DNA from: Akkermansiaceae bacterium
Lineage (GTDB): Bacteria > Verrucomicrobiota > Verrucomicrobiia > Verrucomicrobiales > Akkermansiaceae
Direction of reading: 5' to 3'
Assembly (NCBI GenBank): GCA_017857425.1
Contig: JAFMDE010000003.1
Location: 1-34,798 of the forward strand
DNA length: 34,798 nucleotides
Each line of letters starts with the position of its first letter. Within the stretch, counting starts at the first letter, position 1. Below, one piece after another: positions 2,999-7,861 of this stretch. A model generated the notes under the pieces. That model had not been told where the DNA came from. It ran no database searches and worked only from the letters and a program-made list of their open reading frames with translations. The position numbers and the translations under genes are program-made.

Positions 2999-3463
2999 TC
3001 AAGGCAATAACCTGTCTCTGAAGCGTTGCTTTGGTAGCGGGCAACTTTTGTTGCCACCTAGCCGGTGCCTGTTTCTGGCGATGAAATCGTAGACTGTATT
3101 CTTCAGAAAGCTCGGCAGGAAATAGAAGATCCAAAAAATAGCTAACGGACCTCGAGTAAGATAAAGGGCGCGCAGGGTAGCATTAGCTCCCCGCCATCTC
3201 AGTTCGTTACTTTGGCCGCACGACTCAATCAATACGGCATTACCCGAGGCGCGTCCTTTGGTGTCTGTCGTATTTCTCCATGTGGGGGGAAGCATTGATG
3301 CCGTTTCCCCTTGCAGACTAGTAAAGTAGGTTGTTTGCGTATTATCCCAACGATACAAAATCTGTGCTGTTTTTTGGCAAAACAGGCAGTCACCATCAAA
3401 GAAAAGAATATGTTTTCCTGTAGTATCCATAGTATTTGCAGAGCTGGTATCTGATGGGGTCAT
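2999..3463 (-). CDS. Thiol-disulfide oxidoreductase-like DCC family protein (DUF393)
   Basis: HILFFDGDCLFCQKTAQILYRWD N-terminal DCC-type motif; 154 aa. Confidence 0.85.
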   Translation of the reverse strand: MTPSDTSSANTMDTTGKHILFFDGDCLFCQKTAQILYRWDNTQTTYFTSLQGETASMLPPTWRNTTDTKGRASGNAVLIESCGQSNELRWRGANATLRALYLTRGPLAIFWIFYFLPSFLKNTVYDFIARNRHRLGGNKSCPLPKQRFRDRLLP

Positions 3464-3475
3464 GCATGATGACTG

Positions 3476-5281
3476 CTACTGGTTGGTTGCCTGTCCTCCT
3501 AAGGTATCAACATTTGCGCGGTAGATGTCTTCGATGTCTTTTTCTGCCCGTACCCAGCCAAAGGCATATATACGATCAATACTAAATTGTTTTCTTTTGT
3601 GAGTTTCCTGGTTTGAAGAAACCTGTAACGTTAGCTGAACGGATTTTTCTAATGCTGCGTTTTTGAATGCAGCATCCAGTAGTTTGCCCGTTGTTGTTTG
3701 TTTGAGGCTATATCCGTAGATGATATCCTCAAAGTCGGGGCTTGTTAGTTCGAAAGCGGTCCAGCGTTTGTCATCTCGGTATGTGAAGTTGTAGTAATGT
3801 GATTTTCTGGCGAAAATGCGCAATTCCGCAGATTGGGTTTTGCCTTCTAGCAACAATGGCACGGCTTTAGCGTTATGACGTGCGTAACAATCCCAATCAA
3901 CACGCAAGCCATCCTCGGTGGAGACTATGCAGATTAATCGTGAGCTGTTGTCTGCGAATTTTGCTACAAAGCGTGCGGCCATGATGCCTCCAAGGTTAAC
4001 AACATCAATGAATGTTACCTCAGTGGCTGCTTCACTCAGAGCCCTTTCAGGATAGCTATCCAGCCGTTTGCTGATCTGGTCGGGGTATCTACACATTCTC
4101 AGTCTTATCTGTGGATTAGTCGACTTGGCAAAATCATCGGCAAGTTGTCGTGCTTCCGTGTCATAGAGACGGACGGTCATCTCAGCAAGCTGCTGTTTTT
4201 TAGTATCAAGCTTAGTCTGAGCCATCTCTAATTCTTGTTGGGGCTGAGTTTCACCATTGGCAATATTCTCGGTATTGGGTGCTGAGCTAGCAAGCTTAAG
4301 AGCGTTTGTATTGGCCTCATATTTACGCCATTCTTTCACGGCGATGATGGTCGCTGCTCCGATTACTATGATCAGGATCGTGCTCATTAGCCTGAGCTTC
4401 ATCTTGTGACTCATCGGCTTGGGGGGAGTGGAAGCCTGAGGCGCTATGTGCTCTGCTAAGTTATCTATGGTCTGGTTTACGGTTCGATTACCGCGCTTGC
4501 TTGTTGACCTTGATGGTTTTTTCCCTGGGCGGGCGGTAAGAGTTTCTTTCCTGAGTGTGTTATGAGCGGGTTGGCTACAGTAGCCCAGCTCCTTGATGTC
4601 TGACGCATTAACTGCGGCTGATCTCATGAGCTCTCGGAGGCCATCTAAAGCATCCTCATCGCCACGCATGGCATCGGCGAATCCGCACCAGTATTTGCGT
4701 GGCTCAGATCCGTCATCATGAAGAACGGCATCCTGATCCATGCGGCAGGCAACATCACGTTGTTTTTGAAGTTGATCCAGATAAACTTGGGTTATTTCTT
4801 TACGACAAACATTGCCCTCAAGTGTCTCGTAAAGTTGCGGTCGGTTTTTTTTAACCCACCGGGCAAATGCCTCATTGATTCCCTCAGCGAATTTTCTGGG
4901 TGTGCCAATGCGGCGGGTGCAGCGTTCCCAAAATGTCTGAGTATCTTCCCCGCGCTGTGTGAGTGATTGGTACTCAGCAGTCAGACCCTCGACATGGGAG
5001 GCAGTATAGAGCTTGCGTAGATGTTGGAAGAGGCGTTGCATACCGCTACCAGCAGGCTCATTTTCCCCATCTTGAAAATATTCCATGTGATGCTCCCGTG
5101 CCGGGCAGCTAACCAGCATGCTTAAGTTGCCCGATTCGATGCTATAAGTGAGCACAGTAATGCCACAGAATCTCGAGAGATTACGCATGATAGATACCAT
5201 CGCAGCATGCTCCTCTTCGTCCATAGATTCGTATGAACGAGACGATTTGCATTGGATCCAGAATGTTTTTTGGGCAAACAT
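3476..5281 (-). CDS. RAYT/Y1 transposase-like (HUH-degenerate) N-terminal domain fused to TM helix and uncharacterised extracytoplasmic domain
   Basis: FCGITVLTYSIESGNLSMLVSCP, FAEGINEAFARWVKKNR, VYLDQL...EPRKYWCGFADAMRGDEDALDGL parallel RAYT motifs; TM LMSTILIIVIGAATIIAV; about 280-aa C-terminal domain. Confidence 0.7.
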   Translation of the reverse strand: MFAQKTFWIQCKSSRSYESMDEEEHAAMVSIMRNLSRFCGITVLTYSIESGNLSMLVSCPAREHHMEYFQDGENEPAGSGMQRLFQHLRKLYTASHVEGLTAEYQSLTQRGEDTQTFWERCTRRIGTPRKFAEGINEAFARWVKKNRPQLYETLEGNVCRKEITQVYLDQLQKQRDVACRMDQDAVLHDDGSEPRKYWCGFADAMRGDEDALDGLRELMRSAAVNASDIKELGYCSQPAHNTLRKETLTARPGKKPSRSTSKRGNRTVNQTIDNLAEHIAPQASTPPKPMSHKMKLRLMSTILIIVIGAATIIAVKEWRKYEANTNALKLASSAPNTENIANGETQPQQELEMAQTKLDTKKQQLAEMTVRLYDTEARQLADDFAKSTNPQIRLRMCRYPDQISKRLDSYPERALSEAATEVTFIDVVNLGGIMAARFVAKFADNSSRLICIVSTEDGLRVDWDCYARHNAKAVPLLLEGKTQSAELRIFARKSHYYNFTYRDDKRWTAFELTSPDFEDIIYGYSLKQTTTGKLLDAAFKNAALEKSVQLTLQVSSNQETHKRKQFSIDRIYAFGWVRAEKDIEDIYRANVDTLGGQATNQ

Positions 5282-5437: not shown

Positions 5438-7861
5438 TTACCAAGCCTGTTCACCGTCTCGATCATAGGGCAGCCAGCCGAGAGCGATGGTTTGAATATC
5501 GATGTCTTTTTTGTAAGGTTTGATGACCTCATTCTCAAGTTTGACAGTGGCAGGATTGAATTCGAGTTCCAGCTCTTTGATTTCTTCGGCAAGCTCGGCT
5601 TCAAGCTCGGCAATATCCTCCTCAAGGTTTTTGATTTTGTTTTCGGCAATCTTGACATCGCGGCGTTGTTTATAGGCACGTCCAGCACTGCTAACAGTAC
5701 TGGATGATGAGCTGCGGCGGCCTCCTAATAAATTACCCAACAATCCTCCGAGGACTTTGGCTCCGATGTCCCATGCGGCGCTGCTGGCTTCGGCTTCTTC
5801 CTTGGCGAGGGTGTTTTCGGCTCGATCAACCTGCCCTTCCTTGGTTTTGATCTTAGCTTCATATTTATCGCGAAGTTTTTCCACAGCTTCATCACGTATT
5901 TCACGGGCCTGAGTGGCGAGACGGCCGCGGAAGGCTCCTTCGCTTTCGCCGAGTTGAGAGTAGGATTTAAAAAGTGGGCAGTAGAAAATTTCCACTCGCT
6001 CGTTGCGATAGATGTAATCAGCAAAGTCTTTGGTAACTTGTTTGTAGTTATCGGCATTCATGGCAAAGCCAGGTAGCTCATGGAAGCCGCAGCCTTTGCG
6101 CGGTTTGTCCTTCAACGACTTCACGGGGTGGGTGCAGCCAGCATCATGGTTCCAGTCGATTCCTTGGTCTGTGATGGCATTGGTGAAGCGCATCAGGCGT
6201 GAGCCGTCGATGCCGCATTTGCTGGAGGAGAAGTGCACATTGGCTTCGCGGATCAATGCAGGCTTGTAGGTGATGCCGTCCGACTCACCGGCGAAGGGAA
6301 CGAAGTATTCTTTAACACCTGAGCCGACGACGGGTCGTTCGCCTGCTGCGCTTTCCTGGGAGGCTCCAGGCATTGCCATGGGGTTGGACGACTGTGCTGC
6401 GATCGCTTGCTTGCCTTTGCCCGAGGTGAACTGGTCGCGCTTGGGGTCCATGAGTTTTTTGATCTTGGTTCGGGTGAGGGGACCGCATAGGTAGCTCATC
6501 ACCCAGCGGACATGGAAGACGACGGCAGAGTCTTCATGCACGTTGTTCATCAGGAAGACACGAGAGCCGAGACCGGCGAGCAGTTCTTCCATCCTTCGGC
6601 GATTGAAACCGCCATCCTGCGAGGCTGCGGCACCTTCGAGGCCATCTAGCACACGAGCCTTGTCGCGTTCGGTTTGTAGTCGGCCCAGCCACCAGGTTCC
6701 GATGTTGGAGAGTGCCTTGTAGTCGAGGTCGACGGGGTTCTGAGTAGCTAGCAGGCAGCCGAGTCCAAATGCGCGACCTTGTTTAAGCATGGTCATCATT
6801 GGTTTTTTGCTTGGTGGGTTTGCTGACGGAGGTAGGAAGCCGTAGATCTCATCCATGTAGAGTAGCGCGCGCAGGCTAGTCGTGCCGCTTTGAGTACGCA
6901 TCCATCCTAACATTTGGTTGAGCAGCAGGCTGACAAAAAACATGCGCTCGGCGTCGCTGAGGTGAGCAATGGAGAAGATCGACATGCGCGGTTTGCCTTC
7001 CGGGCTGTGCATCATGTTGGATATGTCTAGTGGAGGGCCTTCCATCCAGGTTGAGAAACCCGGAGAGGCGAGTAGTGCATTGAACTTCAACGCGATTTTC
7101 TGACGCTGTTTGGCGTTCATGAACGAGTTGACGTCGAGGACGCCCACCTTATCAAAGGGAGGTTTCTGCAGGTGGCGGATGAGGGACTCAAGCGAAAGAT
7201 TTTGTCCGTTCTGCCAGCAGTGGTTGAAGATGGTGCCTAGGATGACAGCCTCGGGGCTTTGAATGGGATCGGCATCCACACCGACCAATGAAAGCAGCGA
7301 GCTGACCGTGCTTTCGATTCGGTCACCGAGTAGTTCACCATCGTCGAGAACCTCGAAGGGAGGGACTTCAAGAGAACTTAAAATGGATACCGGTATGCCG
7401 GCTTTGCTGCCAGGCGTGAATATGTTCACGTCCACTTTGTCGCGCAATTCTCTGACCCTTTCTGGGCTTTGTCCCCATGAACCAATGCCTTCTTTCCACA
7501 TGGTGGCGGTTTTTTCTGCGAACTCGTCGGGTGTTTTGCCCTTTTTAGCAGCGTCATCTTCATTAATCCAGGGTCTGAAATCTGAGGGCTCAAAATCGGG
7601 AAAGTTGAGCATCAAGTTTGAGATGTCGCCTTTAGGGTCAATGACAATAGCAGGTATGTTGTCCATCGCTGCTTCCTCGAGAATAGAAATACAAAGGCCT
7701 GTTTTACCCGATCCCGTCATGCCAAGCACGACACCGTGGGTAACCAGGTCCTTGGAGTCATAGAGAACTAATTCATCCTTGAGTTCATTTTTTTTGAGAT
7801 CAAAGCCACGACCTAAATAGAAAGAGCCCAATTTTTCGTAATCACTCGCTTGGATGTGCAT
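5438..7861 (-). CDS. HerA/DUF87-type P-loop ATPase (FtsK/HerA superfamily) with C-terminal coiled coil
   Basis: VVLGMTGSGKTG Walker A, ALLYMDEIYGFLPP Walker B; IDPKGDISNL; coiled coil KQRRDVKIAENKIKNLEEDIAELEAELAEEIKELELEF. Confidence 0.85.
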   Translation of the reverse strand: MHIQASDYEKLGSFYLGRGFDLKKNELKDELVLYDSKDLVTHGVVLGMTGSGKTGLCISILEEAAMDNIPAIVIDPKGDISNLMLNFPDFEPSDFRPWINEDDAAKKGKTPDEFAEKTATMWKEGIGSWGQSPERVRELRDKVDVNIFTPGSKAGIPVSILSSLEVPPFEVLDDGELLGDRIESTVSSLLSLVGVDADPIQSPEAVILGTIFNHCWQNGQNLSLESLIRHLQKPPFDKVGVLDVNSFMNAKQRQKIALKFNALLASPGFSTWMEGPPLDISNMMHSPEGKPRMSIFSIAHLSDAERMFFVSLLLNQMLGWMRTQSGTTSLRALLYMDEIYGFLPPSANPPSKKPMMTMLKQGRAFGLGCLLATQNPVDLDYKALSNIGTWWLGRLQTERDKARVLDGLEGAAASQDGGFNRRRMEELLAGLGSRVFLMNNVHEDSAVVFHVRWVMSYLCGPLTRTKIKKLMDPKRDQFTSGKGKQAIAAQSSNPMAMPGASQESAAGERPVVGSGVKEYFVPFAGESDGITYKPALIREANVHFSSSKCGIDGSRLMRFTNAITDQGIDWNHDAGCTHPVKSLKDKPRKGCGFHELPGFAMNADNYKQVTKDFADYIYRNERVEIFYCPLFKSYSQLGESEGAFRGRLATQAREIRDEAVEKLRDKYEAKIKTKEGQVDRAENTLAKEEAEASSAAWDIGAKVLGGLLGNLLGGRRSSSSSTVSSAGRAYKQRRDVKIAENKIKNLEEDIAELEAELAEEIKELELEFNPATVKLENEVIKPYKKDIDIQTIALGWLPYDRDGEQAW

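Follow-up and report, generated by a model that had tools for sequence, protein, structure and literature searches.

Gene arrangement at the fusion locus

The window analyzed here is a stretch of 34,798 nucleotides from an Akkermansiaceae bacterium (contig JAFMDE010000003.1 of assembly GCA_017857425.1), whose genome, G000 in our set, is a 2.2-Mb draft of 237 contigs. It contains a gene that joins a RAYT-like domain via a basic linker to a transmembrane (TM) helix and an extracytoplasmic domain (ECD) (Table 1). The intact frame of 601 residues and the TM helix had already been recognized in the original prediction and both are real.

Table 1. Features of the fusion gene and its neighbours in window coordinates
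Feature	Position	Strand	Description or basis
Fusion ORF, 601 aa, ATG start	3476..5281	minus	Putatively dead RAYT domain, basic linker, TM helix and ECD; homologues in G089, G075, G060, G081 and G097, truncated in G110
Residues 1-220, Y1/RAYT-fold domain, predicted to be catalytically dead	4622..5281	minus	phmmer, AlphaFold, Foldseek
Residues 51-54, GNLS in place of the HUH motif (NHFH in 55/55 intact RAYTs)	5120..5131	minus	Alignment column counts
Residues 180-189, RMDQDAVLHD at the YIDLNPVRAG position; catalytic Tyr to Arg, metal-ligand Asn to Asp	4715..4744	minus	Alignment
Residues 226-297, basic Ser/Thr/Pro-rich linker, fast evolving	4391..4606	minus	70% identity where the RAYT part has 95%
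Residues 299-316, single TM helix; N-in, C-out implied by the basic flank before the helix	4334..4387	minus	Sequence, hydropathy scan, charge count
Residues 354-601, ECD of a Verrucomicrobiales family; predicted helices and beta sheet, then an OB-like beta barrel	3479..4222	minus	AlphaFold, weak OB-fold matches, family searches
DCC1-like thiol-disulfide oxidoreductase gene, 12 nt downstream of the fusion	2999..3463	minus	Pfam PF04134, E 7.8e-15; synteny
HerA-like ATPase gene, upstream neighbour	5438..7861	minus	Pfam DUF87/HerA_C

In the window, the DCC1-like gene is followed by recA. Synteny comparisons revealed that the gene for the HerA-like ATPase is present throughout the genus, also in the absence of the fusion, and that the DCC1-like gene likewise occurs without it. 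A role in anti-phage defence was considered and rejected, as the PADLOC defence profiles gave no match for the fusion and the HerA-like neighbour is found in the genus without it. Inverted repeats flanking the fusion gene were not found between positions 2800 and 5950. The one palindrome present there lies beside recA: it is a perfect 12-nt palindrome (TGCAGCCATGGT-7-ACCATGGCTGCA, positions 2837-2867) situated just after that gene and possibly a terminator.

Origin and catalytic residues of the RAYT domain

A Pfam scan gives no match for the window protein, Y1_Tnp included; the latter family matches 30 of 36 aligned sequences, a number identical to that of the intact RAYTs in this set. In phmmer searches of the family genomes, residues 20-219 align with intact Akkermansiaceae RAYT ORFs at E values from 4e-22 to 1e-8 (best about 1e-22), and the identity of residues 1-220 to these proteins amounts to about 29-33% over 200 aa. 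The matched ORFs comprise 300-450 aa and have intact NHFH, GTLW and YIDLNPVRAG elements. The AlphaFold model of the RAYT part (pLDDT 86.8, pTM 0.82) is matched by Foldseek to the IS200/IS605 transposase TnpA (2xm3, E 2.7e-5, probability 1.00), with TM-scores by target of 0.6-0.7 for the IS200/IS605 transposase matches; the structure of a REP-bound RAYT, 4er8, follows lower in the list (E 0.036, probability 0.99). The alignment supplied to AlphaFold contained intact RAYTs and the fold result thus partly depends on sequence homology. On the basis of sequence and model, residues 1-220 are homologous to RAYTs and are predicted to adopt the IS200/RAYT Y1 fold, just as the original prediction had proposed for residues 1-240; a chance resemblance is ruled out by the phmmer matches together with those to known folds.

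The nearest DNA-processing relatives of the fusion domain are the intact Akkermansiaceae RAYT ORFs (e.g. L025, L030 and L031). Unlike the fusion, these proteins are soluble, often encoded in several copies per genome and have kept every catalytic residue. The sole recognizable Y1 transposase found in G000 is an intact IS200-type TnpA of 151 aa (L001, G000:C235:739-1083). With RAYT/TnpA_REP proteins in general (class 2 TnpA-Y1; PMC6006769, PMC8266576; 4ER8), the fusion shares fold and sequence ancestry over residues 1-220, including a series of structural positions (F38, G40, T45, L56, F69, H87, R124, F131, W142, G156, G200, A204, G207 and G214). It differs from them by the absence of the HUH motif, the catalytic tyrosine, the asparagine ligand and the GTLW and NPVRAG elements, by its acidic instead of basic character, by the missing C-terminal part of RAYTs, by the added TM helix and ECD, and in that no flanking REPs were seen.

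Residues were compared position by position between 55 intact RAYTs and the five fusions with a readable RAYT domain. The catalytic residues H, H, Y and N are invariant in all 55 intact proteins and replaced in all five fusions. The exchange of NHFH for GNLS, noted in the original prediction, is thereby confirmed: the histidine pair has become N and S in the branch of the window and N and M (ANIM) in G081 and G097. The original prediction had further aligned an upstream YLDQL with the YIDLNP block that contains the catalytic tyrosine. This assignment must be corrected, since the alignment favours RMDQDAVLHD at this position, and it follows that the tyrosine is lost too. Across the fusions, the site reads RMDQDA, SMDEDA or EMDHAA, with the tyrosine replaced by R, S or E and the metal-ligand asparagine by D or A. 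In TnpA_REP from E. coli, N119 is the third metal ligand, and class 2 proteins carry a Y---NP signature (PMC6006769), which none of these sequences displays. The GTLWEGRF and NPVRAG elements had been described as eroded; their loss is correct, but both blocks are absent from the window protein rather than merely degraded. Judged from these replacements, the nuclease function is lost in the fusion.

Membrane-bound half and distribution of the fusion

The TM helix and C-terminal domain of the fusion belong to a multi-copy Verrucomicrobiales family whose members already bear a TM helix. In a phylum-wide draw, this family was present in 22 of 243 genomes, all from families f1 and f4, and a profile search detected further members in G000. 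The C-terminal domain of the fusion matches the family profile with an E value of 1.4e-76, a profile built with the window sequence included, and standalone members in pairwise phmmer comparisons with E values from 1e-38 to 1e-22. According to a hydropathy scan, the TM helix directly precedes the ECD in most family members as it does in the fusion. It follows that the membrane anchor of the fusion was inherited from its partner. In many members the cytoplasmic tail carries a CxxC...CxxC zinc ribbon and in many others it does not, such that the ribbon is optional and not a defining trait of the family. The fusion qualifies as a member through its C-terminal half; other members consist of short tail or zinc ribbon, TM helix and ECD, and in the fusion the putatively dead RAYT domain stands in for the cytoplasmic tail or ribbon. 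The family is unnamed (e.g. L131, L132, L044 and L175), its ECD comprises about 220 aa and many genomes of genus g3 contain a single copy.

The structured C-terminal domain postulated earlier is borne out by an AlphaFold model (pLDDT 94.1) in which helices and a beta sheet precede a beta-beta-beta-alpha-beta-beta unit. Foldseek returned weak OB-fold matches only (best E 1.8e-3, TM-score under 0.3). The domain had been called novel, which is appropriate insofar as it corresponds to no Pfam family; it is not private to the fusion, however, as it belongs to the multi-copy family just described. The sequence just ahead of the TM helix is strongly basic, which by the positive-inside rule suggests a topology with the N-terminus inside and the C-terminus outside.

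Full fusions are encoded in six independent genomes, i.e. G000, G089, G075 (where the gene is split over two contigs), G060, G081 and G097, while a seventh, G110, contains the C-terminal part only, at a contig edge. The recurrence of the same architecture in independently assembled genomes excludes an assembly chimera, which had been named as a possible objection. Outside genus g1, the fusion was not seen in 195 genomes of the family, 388 of the order and 385 of the class, and a scan of viral contigs found none. The co-occurrence of HUH loss and TM fusion, on which the original prediction had called for a homolog search, thus applies to all five readable fusions and is confined to a single genus. 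The fusions form one clade in a tree of RAYT domains (support 100/98), and the fusion copies, including L137-L139 from G000, G075 and G089, make up one group in the ECD tree (97/79). With the RAYT part and the ECD each forming one clade, we conclude that the fusion arose once. In a recA tree the carriers fall in two clades, and loss or transfer between these clades is therefore required. The gene resides between the HerA and DCC1 genes in G000, G089 and G075. In G110, the HerA and DCC1 genes are adjacent and the fusion is absent between them; here, as in G081 and G097, it is located at a different locus that these three genomes have in common. Accordingly, no conserved gene neighbour is common to both branches of the fusion: the locus differs, and the HerA and DCC1 genes also occur without it.

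Selection and possible function

In the lineage of the window, the RAYT part is the best-conserved segment of the fusion. Between G000 and G089 its identity amounts to 94.7%, compared with 74.4% for the ECD, 71% for the TM segment and 70% for the linker; between G000 and G060 the order is the same (RAYT part 77%, ECD 57.5%). Its dN/dS is 0.08 (G000 vs G089) and 0.083 (G000 vs G060), values that indicate strong purifying selection and answer the dN/dS check suggested along with the original prediction. In the close pair G081/G097, where dS is low, dN/dS is 0.29 and purifying selection is weaker. When positions 2999-4000 of the window are compared with L035 from G089, dS is saturated against G000 and G075 over the 3' half of the ECD and the DCC1 gene, while flanking genes have values of about 0.4. 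This points to a recombination tract in G089 across the two regions, by which the ECD divergence between G000 and G089 is inflated. Sequence evolution thus marks the RAYT part as functional, at any rate in the branch of the window. Exaptation, as claimed originally, is supported by the single origin, strong purifying selection and fixation in part of the genus, and the domain was probably recruited for a new job other than transposition.

Several explanations have to be weighed. That the fusion still works as an active or trans-acting RAYT/REP-processing enzyme by means of other residues appears extremely improbable: RAYT homology is all that speaks for it, nucleophile and metal ligands are all replaced, and neither an intact RAYT partner in the window's genome nor REP-like flanks around the gene were found. 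The original prediction tentatively proposed a membrane-tethered regulator that binds DNA or RNA hairpins; binding by the dead RAYT domain would then be under ToxR-like control of the ECD. The retained RAYT fold would agree with this, as would the adjacent basic linker (net +8), which could contact nucleic acid, and the presence in the partner family of zinc ribbons and, once, of an IS5-type transposase N-domain, i.e. of folds of nucleic-acid-binding origin. The linker is poorly conserved, however (70% identity), the residues of the GTLW and NPVRAG blocks are gone and flanking palindromes were not found. Moreover, of 21 conserved basic positions, defined as Lys or Arg in at least 80% of the 55 intact RAYTs, the window protein retains five and the distant branch (G081) one. 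Net charge per 200 aa is reversed to -5.2, -6.2, -3.5, -15.9 and -13.3 in the RAYT parts of the fusions; intact RAYTs have a median of +7.4 (range -1.9 to +12.1). The reversal is stronger in the distant branch. The usual DNA-binding surface of RAYTs thus appears to be largely gone, even though a small nucleic-acid site would be compatible with a negative net charge, and we consider a hairpin-binding regulator unlikely.

We rate it just as unlikely that the fusion is a passive accident, in which the RAYT part is either in decay or an inert anchor in the cytoplasm without a specific role and only TM helix and ECD are of importance. Such a view could draw on the wide variety of N-terminal tails, some of them very short, with which the partner family functions, on the loss of catalytic and basic residues and on a second transposase fragment, unrelated to the RAYT, at the equivalent position in a G041 protein (see below). 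It is difficult to reconcile with a RAYT part that is better conserved than the ECD at a dN/dS of 0.08 in the window's lineage, with its intact predicted fold and with new residues common to both branches (e.g. NRPQL, GSG and MD).

We therefore lean, with some reservation, towards a bitopic inner-membrane protein with an ECD that faces the envelope for binding or sensing and a dead RAYT fold that serves in the cytoplasm as a protein-interaction or scaffolding module and not as a DNA binder. In such a scenario, an ancestor within the Akkermansiaceae genus would on one occasion have acquired a fusion in which a RAYT gene fragment, encoding the core without the C-terminal helices, took the place of the short tail or zinc ribbon ahead of the TM helix in a Verrucomicrobiales protein. 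Nuclease function would have been lost by replacement of H, H, Y and N while purifying selection maintained the fold. The product would be a one-pass inner-membrane protein with its N-terminus inside, the ECD of which may bind or sense something in the envelope. Protein interaction by the RAYT domain is arrived at by exclusion, and we infer the topology and the sensing role of the ECD.

Domesticated RAYTs have been described as active HUH enzymes that kept nuclease activity on REP palindromes (PMC6006769, PMC8266576). In one of these studies (PMC6006769), a protein had to contain the HUH as well as the Y motif to be selected, and sequences of unusual length were set aside as fusions or misannotations. 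The open-access literature searched yielded nothing relevant on a transmembrane RAYT. What is new here is a domesticated transposase without its chemistry that has moved to the membrane. A membrane-attached RAYT fold that selection maintains although its nuclease residues are gone would represent a different route of exaptation. The two branches of the fusion, intact RAYTs in sister species and a second capture offer a natural comparison by which the role of the fold without catalysis becomes testable.

As a tentative and still rather doubtful generalization from this second case, a Verrucomicrobiales family of one-pass membrane receptors may repeatedly take up inactivated transposase domains as its cytoplasmic effector or adaptor half, a RAYT in one instance and an IS5-type protein in G041 in the other. 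If true, such an envelope sensor would signal through a transposase fold. L074 (970-2568; G041:C27:24969-26567, minus strand) encodes a truncated IS5-type DUF772 N-domain (Pfam E 1.8e-7, above cut-off) followed by TM helix and ECD of the same family, a fusion that arose independently. Like the RAYT fusion, it thus carries a dead transposase fragment at the same cytoplasmic position; in contrast to it, the fragment stems from an unrelated transposase superfamily (DDE) and the arrangement was seen in one genome only, from a different genus of the same bacterial family. Intact IS5-type N-domains are acidic too, so that a comparison of charge is uninformative for L074. Its N-domain is 38-41% identical to transposase ORFs of 337-357 aa in other genomes and ends before the DDE core, and in our reading of the alignment the site of the first catalytic aspartate appears altered from VDASF to SIAAF.
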